64,000 bases of DNA, from assembly GCF_000271845.1 (NCBI RefSeq), contig NZ_JH719395.1:1465769-1529768 (forward strand), written 5' to 3'. The DNA comes from Rhizobium leguminosarum bv. trifolii WSM2297. GTDB taxonomy: Bacteria > Pseudomonadota > Alphaproteobacteria > Rhizobiales > Rhizobiaceae. Numbering within the stretch: position 1 is the first letter of the stretch; every line of letters starts with the position of its first letter. The notes beneath the pieces were generated by a model. It saw only the letters and a list, made by a program, of their open reading frames with translations, was not told the DNA's origin and searched no databases. Positions 13,273-41,498 of the stretch are shown here, piece by piece. Position numbers and translations under genes: made by a program.

Positions 13273-13446
13273 GCCCCTCATCCGGCTGCCGCCACCGACC
13301 GGGGTCGAGCCACGGGTCTCGACCCGTCCTTCGGACCCCCGTAAACGGGGCGAAGGGGGAGAGCCGCAGCCTATCCGATCCTGTCTGACCTCTCGCAGGG
13401 CACGTCCCCTCGCCCCGTTTTACGGGGAGAGGGTTAGGGTGAGGGG
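13273..13446. repeat. RIME-like mosaic palindrome, copy B (long form)
   Basis: Runs from CCCCTCATCCGGCTGCCG to GGGTTAGGGTGAGGGGC, with the CCCCGTTTTACGGGG hairpin at the right. It carries an additional hairpin module (GGGTCGAG...CTCGACCC) shared only with copies at 31556 and 37172. The rest of the 13148-13889 gap shows no convincing gene. Confidence 0.75.
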
Positions 13447-37351: not shown

Positions 37352-37505
37352 CATGGAAAACTGCGCAAATCGCTCCCCGCCTTGAACCCGACGCCTTAAT
37401 CCCCTAAATTCCCTGCCATCGACCGTTCCAACAGGATGTGTGCCGCAATGGATTTCGACCCGATCGCAATGCCAGCTCGCCTTGCCAATGGGGAAATCCG
37501 TATCC

Positions 37506-39089
37506 ATGCCTGCATCCATCACTCTCACGCAAATTTCATGGGCCACGCCTGACGGGCGGCCGCTTTTTTCCGATCTCGATCTGAGTTTCGGGGCGGACCG
37601 CACCGGTCTGGTCGGCCGCAACGGCGTCGGCAAGACGACGCTGCTCAGGCTCGTCTCCGGTGACACCAAGCCGCAATCGGGGACGATCTCCGTCAGCGGC
37701 AGCCTCGGCATCCTCCGGCAGAGCGTTCAGGTCGCGCCGGATGAAACCGTCGCCGACCTCTTCGGCGTGGCCGATGCGCTTGCCGTCCTTCATCGGGCCG
37801 AACGCGGCGAGGCAACGGCCGACGAGCTTTTATCGGCGGACTGGACGCTGGAGGCGCGGATCGCCGCTGCACTTCATCGCACCGGGCTCGACGCAGAGCC
37901 GCAGACGCTGCTGGCCGCGCTTTCCGGCGGGCAGCGCACCCGGGCCGGGCTTGCCGCACTGGTTTTCACCGAACCGGATTTCCTGCTGCTCGACGAACCG
38001 ACAAACAATCTCCACCGCGACGGCCGAAAGGCGGTGATCGCATTGATATCAGGCTGGCGGGCCGGCGCGATCATCGTCAGCCATGACCGGGAATTGCTGG
38101 AAAGCATGGATGCGATCGTCGAACTGACGTCGCTCGGCGTCACCCGCTACGGCGGCAACTGGAGCCATTATCGCGAGCGCAAGGCGCTGGAGCTTGCGGC
38201 CGCACGGCATGATCTTGCCGATGCCGAAAAGCGCATCGCCGAGGTGGCTGCGAAGGCGCAGGCGACGGTGGAGCGCCAGGCGCACCGGGACAGCGCCGGG
38301 CGCAAGATGGCTGCCAAGGGCGGCATTCCACGCATCATGCTCGGCGGCATGAAGGAGCGGAGCGAAACGACCGGCGGCGACAATGCCCGCCTCGCCGAAC
38401 GCCGGCGCACTCAGGCACAGGACGAAGCAAGGGCGGCGCGCGAGAAAATCGAGATCCTCCAGCCCTTGTCGGTCACCTTGCCGCCGACCGGGCTCCCCGC
38501 CAGCAGGATCGTGCTGAAGATGGATAGGGTGACGGCGGGCTATCAACCGGGCGATCCCGTCATCCGAAATCTCTCCTTCGACGTGACGGGGCCGGAGCGG
38601 ATTGCCATCACCGGCGGCAACGGCTCGGGCAAGACGACGCTGCTTTCGCTCGTTATCGGCGAACTCGAGCCCTGGGCCGGCACGGTCGGCGTCCTGACCG
38701 GTTTCGCCATGCTCGATCAGAAGGTCGGCCTTCTCGACCCGTTGGCCTCGATCCGCGACAATTTTCGCCGGATCAATCCGCATTCCGATGAAAACACCTG
38801 CCGGGCGGTGCTAGCCCGCTTCATGTTCAGGGCTGATGCGGCGCTGCAGGCCGTTTCGACGCTCAGCGGCGGACAATTGCTGCGCGCCGGCCTTGCCTGT
38901 GTTCTCGGCTCCGCACCGCCGCCGCTGCTGATCCTCGATGAGCCGACCAACCATCTCGACATCGACTCGATTTCAGCCGTCGAGGCCGGGCTGCGGGCCT
39001 ATGACGGCGCACTGCTCGTCGTCAGCCACGACGAGGCGTTCCTCGAAAGCATTGGCATAGGGCGGCGGCTGGAATTGCCTGCCCAGTAA
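37506..39089 (+). CDS. ABC-F family ATPase
   Basis: 527 residues from MPASITLTQISW. Two ABC domains in one chain: Walker A GRNGVGKTT and GGNGSGKTT, signature LSGGQRTRAGLAAL and LSGGQLLRAGLAC, Walker B LLLDEPTNNL and LILDEPTNHL. No membrane segments. The linker between is highly charged. ABC-F proteins act on the ribosome, either rescuing stalled translation or protecting it from antibiotics. The arm and linker lengths do not tell which. It is convergent with the metal-dependent hydrolase gene. Confidence 0.88.
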   Translation: MPASITLTQISWATPDGRPLFSDLDLSFGADRTGLVGRNGVGKTTLLRLVSGDTKPQSGTISVSGSLGILRQSVQVAPDETVADLFGVADALAVLHRAERGEATADELLSADWTLEARIAAALHRTGLDAEPQTLLAALSGGQRTRAGLAALVFTEPDFLLLDEPTNNLHRDGRKAVIALISGWRAGAIIVSHDRELLESMDAIVELTSLGVTRYGGNWSHYRERKALELAAARHDLADAEKRIAEVAAKAQATVERQAHRDSAGRKMAAKGGIPRIMLGGMKERSETTGGDNARLAERRRTQAQDEARAAREKIEILQPLSVTLPPTGLPASRIVLKMDRVTAGYQPGDPVIRNLSFDVTGPERIAITGGNGSGKTTLLSLVIGELEPWAGTVGVLTGFAMLDQKVGLLDPLASIRDNFRRINPHSDENTCRAVLARFMFRADAALQAVSTLSGGQLLRAGLACVLGSAPPPLLILDEPTNHLDIDSISAVEAGLRAYDGALLVVSHDEAFLESIGIGRRLELPAQ

Positions 39090-39097
39090 TTTGAGCC

Positions 39098-39592
39098 TCA
39101 GGCTTGCTGCATGCCTCGACCGCGGCGGTTTCCGCGGACCGCGACGAACACCGCCGCCGCGCAGATCAGGAGTTCCAAGCCGAAAGTCCAGTGCAACATG
39201 AAACTGACAACCCAGTTGCTGTGGGTTGCCGGCACCGTCGCCAGTTCGATTTTCGTCCAATCGAAGGGCGCCAGCCAGAGCACCGGCGCGGCGACGGTAT
39301 CCATGACCATATGGAGCATGACGGCCGCGAAAAAGACGACGGCGGTGGGAAACCAGCGCGGCGCAAGCGGTCGGATCGCCGGCAGAACTGCGCCGGCGAG
39401 AGCCAGCCAGAAAAGCGGCCAATGGGAGATATAGTCGTGGTGGTGAACCTTGCCGCCGGTCATGCAGAAATAGACCATGTCGAAATCCGGCAGCACGCTG
39501 CCGATCAGGGCTGCGGCCATGCCGGGCGCTGCGAATCGCTGCCTCGCGACCCTCGCCAGAAGGTAACCCGCAGGCAAATGTGCAATGAGCAT
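39098..39592 (-). CDS. YdjM/YbcI-like membrane-bound metal-dependent hydrolase
   Basis: 164 residues with four hydrophobic segments. His and Asp residues in MLIAHLPAGYLL, GSVLPDFDMVYF and GKVHHHDYISHWPLF and LHMVMDTV match the DUF457/YdjM family of membrane-embedded metal-dependent hydrolases (the phospholipase C-like HxxxH arrangement). Substrate unknown. It is divergent from the ABC-F leader region. Confidence 0.8.
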   Translation of the reverse strand: MLIAHLPAGYLLARVARQRFAAPGMAAALIGSVLPDFDMVYFCMTGGKVHHHDYISHWPLFWLALAGAVLPAIRPLAPRWFPTAVVFFAAVMLHMVMDTVAAPVLWLAPFDWTKIELATVPATHSNWVVSFMLHWTFGLELLICAAAVFVAVRGNRRGRGMQQA

Positions 39593-39734
39593 GCGTCTGA
39601 TCTCCCACTCGGCTCCGAGAAATCATCTATGGGCGATTTATGGCTGGAAATCGGCGCGGCTGGGGTTCTCTTGCCTCTTTCTGCGGGCAATGTTATTTCA
39701 ATCCCGCAAGCTTTCGAGAAAGGAGGATCACGCC

Positions 39735-39806
39735 ATGCAGTATTATTTCCGGTTTCACCGCCAGCGTGGTCCCGTCAACGCCCTGCAAATGCGTTTGCAG
39801 GGCTGA
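39735..39806 (+). CDS. 23-residue leader peptide upstream of the ABC-F gene
   Basis: An AAAGGAGG ribosome-binding site lies 9-10 nt before ATG 39735. The short frame encodes MQYYFRFHRQRGPVNALQ... and ends TGA at 39804-39806, 171 nt before the ABC-F start. It contains RQR, the +X+ motif known to arrest ribosomes in the presence of macrolides (as in ErmDL-type leaders). Its last codons lie in a 9-bp hairpin. It is very probably a translated regulatory leader; the trigger is inference. Confidence 0.7.
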   Translation: MQYYFRFHRQRGPVNALQMRLQG

Positions 39807-39977
39807 CCCAGAGACCGTTTACCGACATCTCTTCCTGGTCTGCCCTTCGTGGCCAATGCGGCGCCGTATCCCAAGATTCGCTCCCGCATTCCTATATTTT
39901 CCCGGGCCCGATGCGCAATCCCGTGATGGCTGAACGCCCCGGATCACGCTCGTCCCGGTCAAGACCAGAGACCGATC
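39781..39977 (+). promoter_or_regulatory. Attenuator-like leader region of the ABC-F gene
   Basis: CCCTGCAAA (39781-39789) pairs with TTTGCAGGG (39794-39802) around a TGCG loop. It overlaps the end of the leader ORF. CTGGTCT (39835-39841) can pair with AGACCAG (39962-39968), which lies just before the weak AGAG ribosome-binding site of the ABC-F gene. Two alternative structures are thus possible, of the attenuation type. No T-tract follows the first hairpin. Confidence 0.55.

Positions 39978-41498
<1,521 letters not shown>

Follow-up and report, generated by a model that had tools for sequence, protein, structure and literature searches.

We describe a short leader open reading frame (ORF) that, together with the RNA around it, is likely to form a stall-sensing translational attenuator of an ABC-F ATPase gene, following the logic of ermC. 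It lies in the window (the whole 64,000-nucleotide stretch of DNA analysed here), and the leader occurs in Rhizobium, Bradyrhizobium, Ensifer, Phyllobacterium, Aminobacter, and many of their relatives, tied to one uncharacterised ABC-F. The attenuator is probably triggered by ribosome arrest at an invariant Gly-Pro pair in the leader peptide; the arrest is probably drug-induced and may be relieved by the ABC-F itself. Such a family bears on two questions: which events on their own ribosomes Gram-negative soil bacteria sense, and what roles unassigned ABC-F proteins have. Among the matches listed in the open-licence PMC literature, none gives an account of this leader. Articles are cited by PMC number.

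Results

All features of the leader and its target are on the plus strand. A perfect Shine-Dalgarno sequence, AAAGGAGG (39719-39726), kept in alignments A2 and A3, precedes a 23-amino-acid ORF (39735-39806; MQYYFRFHRQRGPVNALQMRLQG and a stop codon) that is defined by its sequence and its conservation in relatives. The ORF ends 171 nt before the ATG, at 39978, of a gene for a 506-amino-acid ATPase with two ABC domains (39978-41498). A first-pass annotation of this DNA had described the perfect Shine-Dalgarno sequence, the 23-codon ORF, and the gap of this length, and all three are present. A longer in-frame ORF runs from 39585; conservation in relatives begins only at the Shine-Dalgarno sequence, after which many of their leaders start with GTG. 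At the leader, no Rfam 15 family matched at gathering score, the only such matches in the window being two tRNAs elsewhere; one subthreshold match lies nearby on the opposite strand (39604-39674). The predicted fold of 39700-39990 is just modestly more stable than those of shuffled sequences (z -1.90, with 6 of 200 shuffles equal or better), so the case made here rests on conservation and not on folding energy. Divergent from the leader is an ORF of 164 amino acids on the minus strand (39098-39592), which has no NCBIfam match. Elsewhere in the window, a dispersed repeat, CCCTCACCCTAACCCTCTCC, is present in six exact copies, at 13426, 22295, 31560, 37327, 41531, and 44544, where none would be expected.

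The leader accompanies the ABC-F gene closely. Of 80 rhizobial loci fetched for their ABC-F relative, 79 have a Gly-Pro leader ahead of the same hairpin (best ABC-F segment 76 to 96% identical, many of the loci close to R. leguminosarum). These loci come from Rhizobium, Pararhizobium, Aminobacter, Bradyrhizobium, Phyllobacterium, Ensifer, and other Rhizobiales. The exception, L050 from Rhizobium sp. Root1220, has lost the leader ORF and its Shine-Dalgarno sequence and has kept the hairpin and the RNA segment called segment 2 below; judging from its sequence, it is expected to be an uninducible natural variant. In L027 and L057, insertions seemed to separate the leader from the ABC-F, but the sequences showed these to be an artefact of joined tblastn pieces. 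Six plasmid records matched the leader, two of them Sinorhizobium meliloti pSymA; in all six, the sequence shortly after the leader shows an ABC-F-like start, which three of the records annotate as ABC-F. This tally leaves out matches at <60% identity (14 Aeromonas and 1 Enterobacter). A match on a Shinella plasmid (E 6, no ABC-F seen) was dropped as a leader.

Covariance models extended the survey to samples of larger groups at the order, class, and phylum levels. With model R1, each of eight genomes showed a single strong copy and, beyond it, only weak matches (E 0.003 or worse); the model matched 7 of 385 genomes of the class, in each of which reading placed a leader before an ABC-F. Model R2, built from 22 sequences, matched 39 of 297 genomes in the order of R. 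johnstonii 3841 and, in other orders, 2 of 4, 1 of 16, and 29 of 148; its 24 matches among 398 genomes of the phylum comprise 19 already found and five new ones with Gly-Pro leaders by reading. An ABC-F start is in place downstream of the leader in 71 of 72 further loci tested. In the remaining one, L126 (genome G542, C1:1475976-1477624), the leader is about 1.5 kb from the ABC-F, possibly owing to an insertion at the gene start.

Co-occurrence was also counted from the side of the gene. In the 148-genome order, the 29 genomes with an ABC-F match at E 1e-60 or better are identical to the 29 leader-bearing ones. The 297-genome order has 46 such ABC-F matches, five of which, 34 to 35% identical and without a leader match, were taken for another family. 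Among the other 41 (at least 52% identical), 39 have a leader by the model and two by reading, both diverged (FGPRFAL and RTRGPVLAP). Thus, all 70 genomes with an orthologous ABC-F in the two orders carry the leader (68 by model and 2 by reading), whereas in the 375 genomes without an ortholog (119 and 256) the model found no leader at E 1e-4, a cut-off at which it overlooked 2 of the 41 true ones. One genome, G730 (C1:2672211-2673419), has an interrupted ABC-F, in two matched pieces with one internal stop; its leader still matches the model.

Conservation of the peptide was read from alignment A5, which holds 87 leaders: that of the window, 21 of the 86 other loci in L001-L087 (L084 not being counted among these), and 65 of the 72 further genome loci. 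Other rows were dropped to thin near-duplicates, and most leaders were picked by covariance model, which biases the set toward conserved ones. Counted in codons back from the hairpin, Gly at position -4 and Pro at -3 are present in 87 of 87 leaders; in the window, they are codons 12 and 13 (39768-39773), the proposed arrest site. The first and second bases of both codons have an entropy of 0.00 bits, whereas the third bases reach 1.24 and 1.56 bits (Gly as GGC in 53 leaders, GGT in 29, GGA in 4, and GGG in 1; Pro as CCC in 50, CCT in 22, CCG in 10, and CCA in 5). Since the third bases vary freely, Gly-Pro appears to be selected as peptide. The first-pass annotation had named a lack of conservation of the leader codons as one result that would refute its proposal; the leader amino acids turn out to be conserved. 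Before Gly-Pro come Arg (58) or Leu (29), then Gln (64), Thr (20), or one of three singly occurring residues, and then Arg (54), His (23), Tyr (7), Cys (2), or Phe (1), so that [R/H]-G-P is found in 77 of 87 leaders and Y, C, or F precedes G-P in 10.

Downstream of Pro, the constraint fades within two codons. Position -2 is Val in 57 leaders, Arg in 23, Ile in 6, and Phe in 1, and position -1 is unrestricted. The leader stop codon falls inside the hairpin in 22 of 87 leaders and at the hairpin end or one codon beyond in 65, and the C terminus would be dispensable, given those 22. Selection thus appears, from the alignment, to act on a peptide that ends at or just after Pro. The same 22 leaders led us to reject, as the main reading, a small protein that works in trans and for which the RNA fold would be incidental. 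We regard such a protein as very improbable: the residues from -7 to -2 are indeed restricted, and in S. meliloti the leader peptide peTrpL works in trans (PMC7298713), but invariance is limited to Gly-Pro, the spacing to the hairpin is fixed, and the linkage to ABC-F is strict.

The RQR seen by the first-pass annotation is present in the window peptide, and the close set retains R-X-R in 77 of its 79 leaders (RQRGP in 76, RQPGP in 2, and RRRGP in 1). That annotation had taken it for the +X+ motif at which macrolide-bound ribosomes halt, the motif of MefAL and ErmDL (PMC10314930). As a general determinant, the motif fails: only 54 of the 87 leaders have R-X-R, the other 33 carrying LQH, LTY, RQF, RQC, RTC, and the like, and RQP (L032 and L049) or RQL (L086) appears in nearer relatives, so we rejected +X+ as the determinant of the family. 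Moreover, arrest at R-X-R would leave the invariant Gly-Pro unexplained, and ribosomes modelled on its codons (c-3 and c-2) leave the RNA unflipped. A macrolide sensor working through RQR is, in our judgment, unlikely, and we retain Gly-Pro as the candidate arrest site.

The leader hairpin pairs segment 0, GCCCTGCAAA (39780-39789), with the 3' arm TTTGCAGGGC (39794-39803). It covers the last leader codons, as first annotated, over 10 bp and not 9. The same hairpin recurs upstream of the orthologous ABC-F genes: 98.7% of cells are paired, with 31 double-changed cells against 5.6 in shuffles. Within the window, its 22-base core, with up to three mismatches, matches its own site alone, on both strands because the core is a palindrome; shuffles predict no match. 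Counted from the first base of the Pro codon, segment 0 begins exactly 9 nt downstream, and the distance from Gly-Pro to the hairpin is fixed.

A further helix, P0, was found by consensus folding and covariation, between GGATCACGC (39725-39733), which covers the end of the leader Shine-Dalgarno sequence, and GCGTGGTCC (39764-39772), in the codons of R11-G12-P13. In 34 closer sequences, 99.3% of its cells are paired, with a covariation of 0.325 against at most 0.111 when the helix is slid; in all 87 sequences, the values are 84.1% and 0.278 against at most 0.156. Its double-changed pair counts and pair-type counts are not above those of shuffles in either set, and in the broad set a slide of -3 has 33 double-changed cells against 27 for P0 itself. 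Covariation contributes just -1.83 of -42.59 kcal/mol to the consensus folding of the 34 sequences. As P0 pairs through the R-G-P codons, the nucleotide conservation there may be partly structural. With the covariation mixed in this way, it may be noted that a ribosome stalled on the Arg-Gly-Pro codons would release the leader start site for the next ribosome.

The central element of the proposed switch is segment 2, CTGGTCTGCCC (39835-39845), which can pair either with AGACCAG at the ABC-F ribosome-binding site (segment 3, 39962-39968) or with GGGCTGACC(C)AG, where the leader hairpin ends. This latter partner lies in segment 1, GGGCTGACCCAG (39800-39811), made up of the hairpin end, the stop codon, and 5 nt. 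The pairing of CTGGTCT (39835-39841) with AGACCAG, pointed out in the first-pass annotation, therefore stands as one helix and is incomplete, being only half of a switch whose other half is the alternative with segment 1. When segment 3 is paired with its native middle region, which separates the leader from the ABC-F, 85 sequences give -16.77 kcal/mol, against -15.0 (sd 0.26) when middles are swapped among loci (z -6.7, none of 5,000 permutations as low). For segment 1 and the middle, the figures are -17.99 against -17.25 (sd 0.20; z -3.7, p 0.0002). No such native excess is present in three control regions, coding, leader, and upstream (z +1.5 to +4.5). Swaps matched for length and GC between dissimilar sequences keep the sign, with means of -1.32 (segment 3) and -0.62 (segment 1) kcal/mol and the native pairing stronger in 67% and 64% of 75. 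A slight native excess (p 0.013) is seen as well for segments 1 and 3, which the model leaves unpaired, so part of the swap signal may reflect relatedness or composition, and the p-values overstate significance because the sequences are related. These tests, like the ribosome walk below, used 85 of the 87 A5 sequences, leaving out L126 (no placed ABC-F start) and L033, with the ABC-F start of L060 placed 12 nt too early. By reading, segments 1, 2, and 3 of the distant loci L097, L099, and L100 all shift, in a compensatory manner, from GACC/GGTC/GACC to GATC/GATC/GATC; in some loci, such as L140, L156, and L158, a matching segment 3 is not visible by eye. From pairing and folding models, the two helices of segment 2 are predicted to be mutually exclusive, one of them covering the ABC-F ribosome-binding site.

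A switch of this type might instead act on transcription, by exposing or hiding, in the RNA that separates leader and ABC-F, a region where Rho loads. The middle region is long and mostly unconserved in the rhizobial loci, which would suit such a role, and ABC-F resistance genes tend toward transcription attenuation (PMC10314930, PMC12421871). However, a pattern search of the window found no intrinsic terminator between leader and ABC-F, its three patterns all lying upstream of the leader; the gap from the hairpin to the ABC-F ATG is as short as 60 nt in some loci; and the strongest swap signal is that of the helix at the ribosome-binding site. We consider transcriptional attenuation quite unlikely, although the same RNA switch could work through Rho or mRNA decay, and we proceed with control of translation.

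To follow the RNA during leader translation, only the part downstream of the ribosome was folded, codon by codon, with a footprint reaching to +12. For the window, the model moves from 2.8 pairs in the 1:2 helix with Gly in the P site to 8.9 with Pro there and 11.2 at the next codon. Over the same three positions, the 2:3 pairs drop (11.3, 6.4, and 4.2) and the binding-site core becomes more open (0.26, 0.42, and 0.51). The predicted flip stays at Pro or the adjacent codon with footprints of 11, 13, or 14 nt. Across the 85 sequences, one codon past Pro compared with Arg11, modelled 1:2 pairing is up by more than 1 in 55 and down in 3, 2:3 is down in 45 and up in 5, and the binding site gains more than 0.05 in openness in 31 sequences, against 7 in which it closes. 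Melting of the hairpin at Pro is a consequence of the geometry, whereas pairing of the released arm with segment 2 and the freeing of the binding site are not. Native middles do better than shuffled ones in mean change of 1:2 (+3.9 against +2.7, Wilcoxon p 0.002), of 2:3 (-2.2 against -0.4, p 0.00008), and of opening (+0.065 against +0.005, p 0.006), the opening being small on average and all three p-values rough owing to kinship. The native sequence beats its own shuffled mean in 55 (1:2), 56 (2:3), and 44 (opening) of 85. A coarser first measure was weaker, with a mean gain of 0.03 and a gain above 0.05 in 32% of the 85.

The target has two ABC domains and an interdomain helical linker, features common to all ABC-F proteins. 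Its best relatives by sequence in the structural database are VmlR2 (8buu; 28% identical, 176 bits) and YheS (168 bits). An AlphaFold2 model of middling confidence (pLDDT 78.4) places linker helices at 207-249 and 252-272, and Foldseek ranks VmlR2 (8buu) first and YbiT next for this model. To our knowledge, YbiT is not a resistance factor. Among the best 25 of 186 NCBIfam families, no curated resistance family is matched above its cut-off (NF000355, ribosomal protection, 287.8 against 380; Sal, 212.4 against 725; Vga, 198.7 against 725). Resistance ABC-Fs are recognised by patchy presence and variation within genera (PMC6723617); the present ABC-F is patchy when whole orders, and not genera, are counted: one order has it in 29 of 148 genomes and the other in 41 of 297. 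We treat it as an unassigned ABC-F. Upstream of the leader-controlled gene, and on its strand, lies another ABC-F gene (37440-39089), which ends about 0.9 kb before it; its score (329.3 of 380) likewise falls short of the cut-off for ribosomal protection, and reading revealed no comparable leader directly upstream of it.

Discussion

We propose the following sequence of events. In the resting state, the RNA would fold into the leader hairpin (0:1) and the 2:3 helix, the latter hiding the ABC-F ribosome-binding site. A ribosome translating the leader would arrest with Gly-Pro at the peptidyl transferase centre, most likely with Pro in the P site, and its leading edge would melt the base of the hairpin. 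The freed GGGC-UGACC would then pair with segment 2 (1:2), the ribosome-binding site would open, and ABC-F would be made. What the first-pass annotation had offered, an ABC-F under a leader like those of stall-inducible erm and ABC-F genes, thus keeps its conserved ORF and gains alternative helices at the ribosome-binding site, while its +X+ determinant is given up.

As for the trigger, a ribosome-binding antibiotic is the one we favour, if by a modest degree, with ABC-F clearing the arrest as feedback. A drug sensor with such feedback fits the patchy distribution of the gene and the short peptide, and MsrD, when ectopically expressed, suppresses induction through its own leader (PMC10314930).

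The MsrD result would also suit a self-monitoring loop, to which we give tentative and clearly lesser credence. In it, an intrinsic SecM/RAPP-like arrest at [R/H/Y]-Gly-Pro, joined to an erm-type switch, might monitor ABC-F ribosome-rescue capacity in a widespread alphaproteobacterial leader family; in the papers cited here, arrest of this kind comes mainly from the monitoring of protein export. ABC-F would clear the stall on its own leader; its shortage, or drugs and hard-to-translate chains that occupy or exceed it, might raise its synthesis, antibiotics acting only indirectly. The [R/H]-G-P of 77 leaders resembles the motifs RGPP, HGPP, RAPV, RGPS, and RAGP used in searches for sec/yidC leaders, for some of which arrest is demonstrated (PMC10987492), and the arrested state of ApdA and ApdP has peptidyl-RAP in the P site (PMC10951233). 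In none of the 87 leaders, however, is Pro followed by Pro or Gly; the next residue is V, R, I, or F. Pro is residue 11 to 14 from the first in-frame start after the Shine-Dalgarno sequence in 83 of 85 leaders (two more have no start), whereas export-monitoring arrest peptides are far longer than this. The patchy presence of the ABC-F also suits a resistance factor more than a housekeeping one. We thus return to the drug-triggered attenuator as the preferred reading in setting the family beside known systems.

In ermC, four segments pair as 1:2 and 3:4 or, alternatively, as 2:3. The present leader is like ermC (ErmCL) in its short ORF with a Shine-Dalgarno sequence, its conservation of amino acids, and a predicted structure change that would expose the Shine-Dalgarno sequence of the target. 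It differs in its ABC-F target, its alphaproteobacterial hosts, the invariant Gly-Pro, and the extra helix between the leader Shine-Dalgarno sequence and the Arg-Gly-Pro codons. For ermC itself, a stall on the short leader refolds the mRNA and exposes the target's Shine-Dalgarno sequence (PMC10219788).

Leader ORFs also precede the ABC-F genes msrD, vmlR, vgaA, lmrC, tiaA, and are5sc, where induction is by stalling (PMC10314930, PMC12421871); the vmlR leader combines transcription and translation attenuation (PMC9226507). In the papers cited, stall-sensing ABC-F leaders come mainly from Gram-positive genes. Unlike the family described here, in which no intrinsic terminator was seen in the window, those leaders encode other peptides (e.g., MYLIFM) and are mostly terminator based. 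A Gram-negative parallel is the uORF of E. coli topAI-yjhQ, which is reported to sense several classes of ribosome-targeting antibiotics (PMC12121999), although its target is a toxin-antitoxin system. ErmDL and MefAL have the +X+ motif, to which the RQR of the window peptide corresponds; R-X-R is absent from 33 of 87 members of the family.

Finally, the leader partly resembles the RAPP-like (RQH family) peptides SecM, ApdA, ApdP, and ApcA in having [R/H]-[A/G]-P at the proposed arrest site; the pattern of those peptides is [R/Q/H]-[A/G]-P with a following P or, in ApcA-like motifs, another residue. In the RAPP-like motifs of SecM and ApdP, peptidyl-RAP occupies the P site (PMC10987492, PMC10951233, PMC12992588), and uORFs of the ApdP type are present in Rhizobiales (PMC10987492). 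Unlike those peptides, the leader has no room for an N-terminal export signal, usually has V or R after Pro, and precedes an ABC-F (71 of 72 loci) instead of secA, secDF, or yidC. As a naturally occurring sequence, it may offer a link between the stalls that sense drugs and those that sense export.
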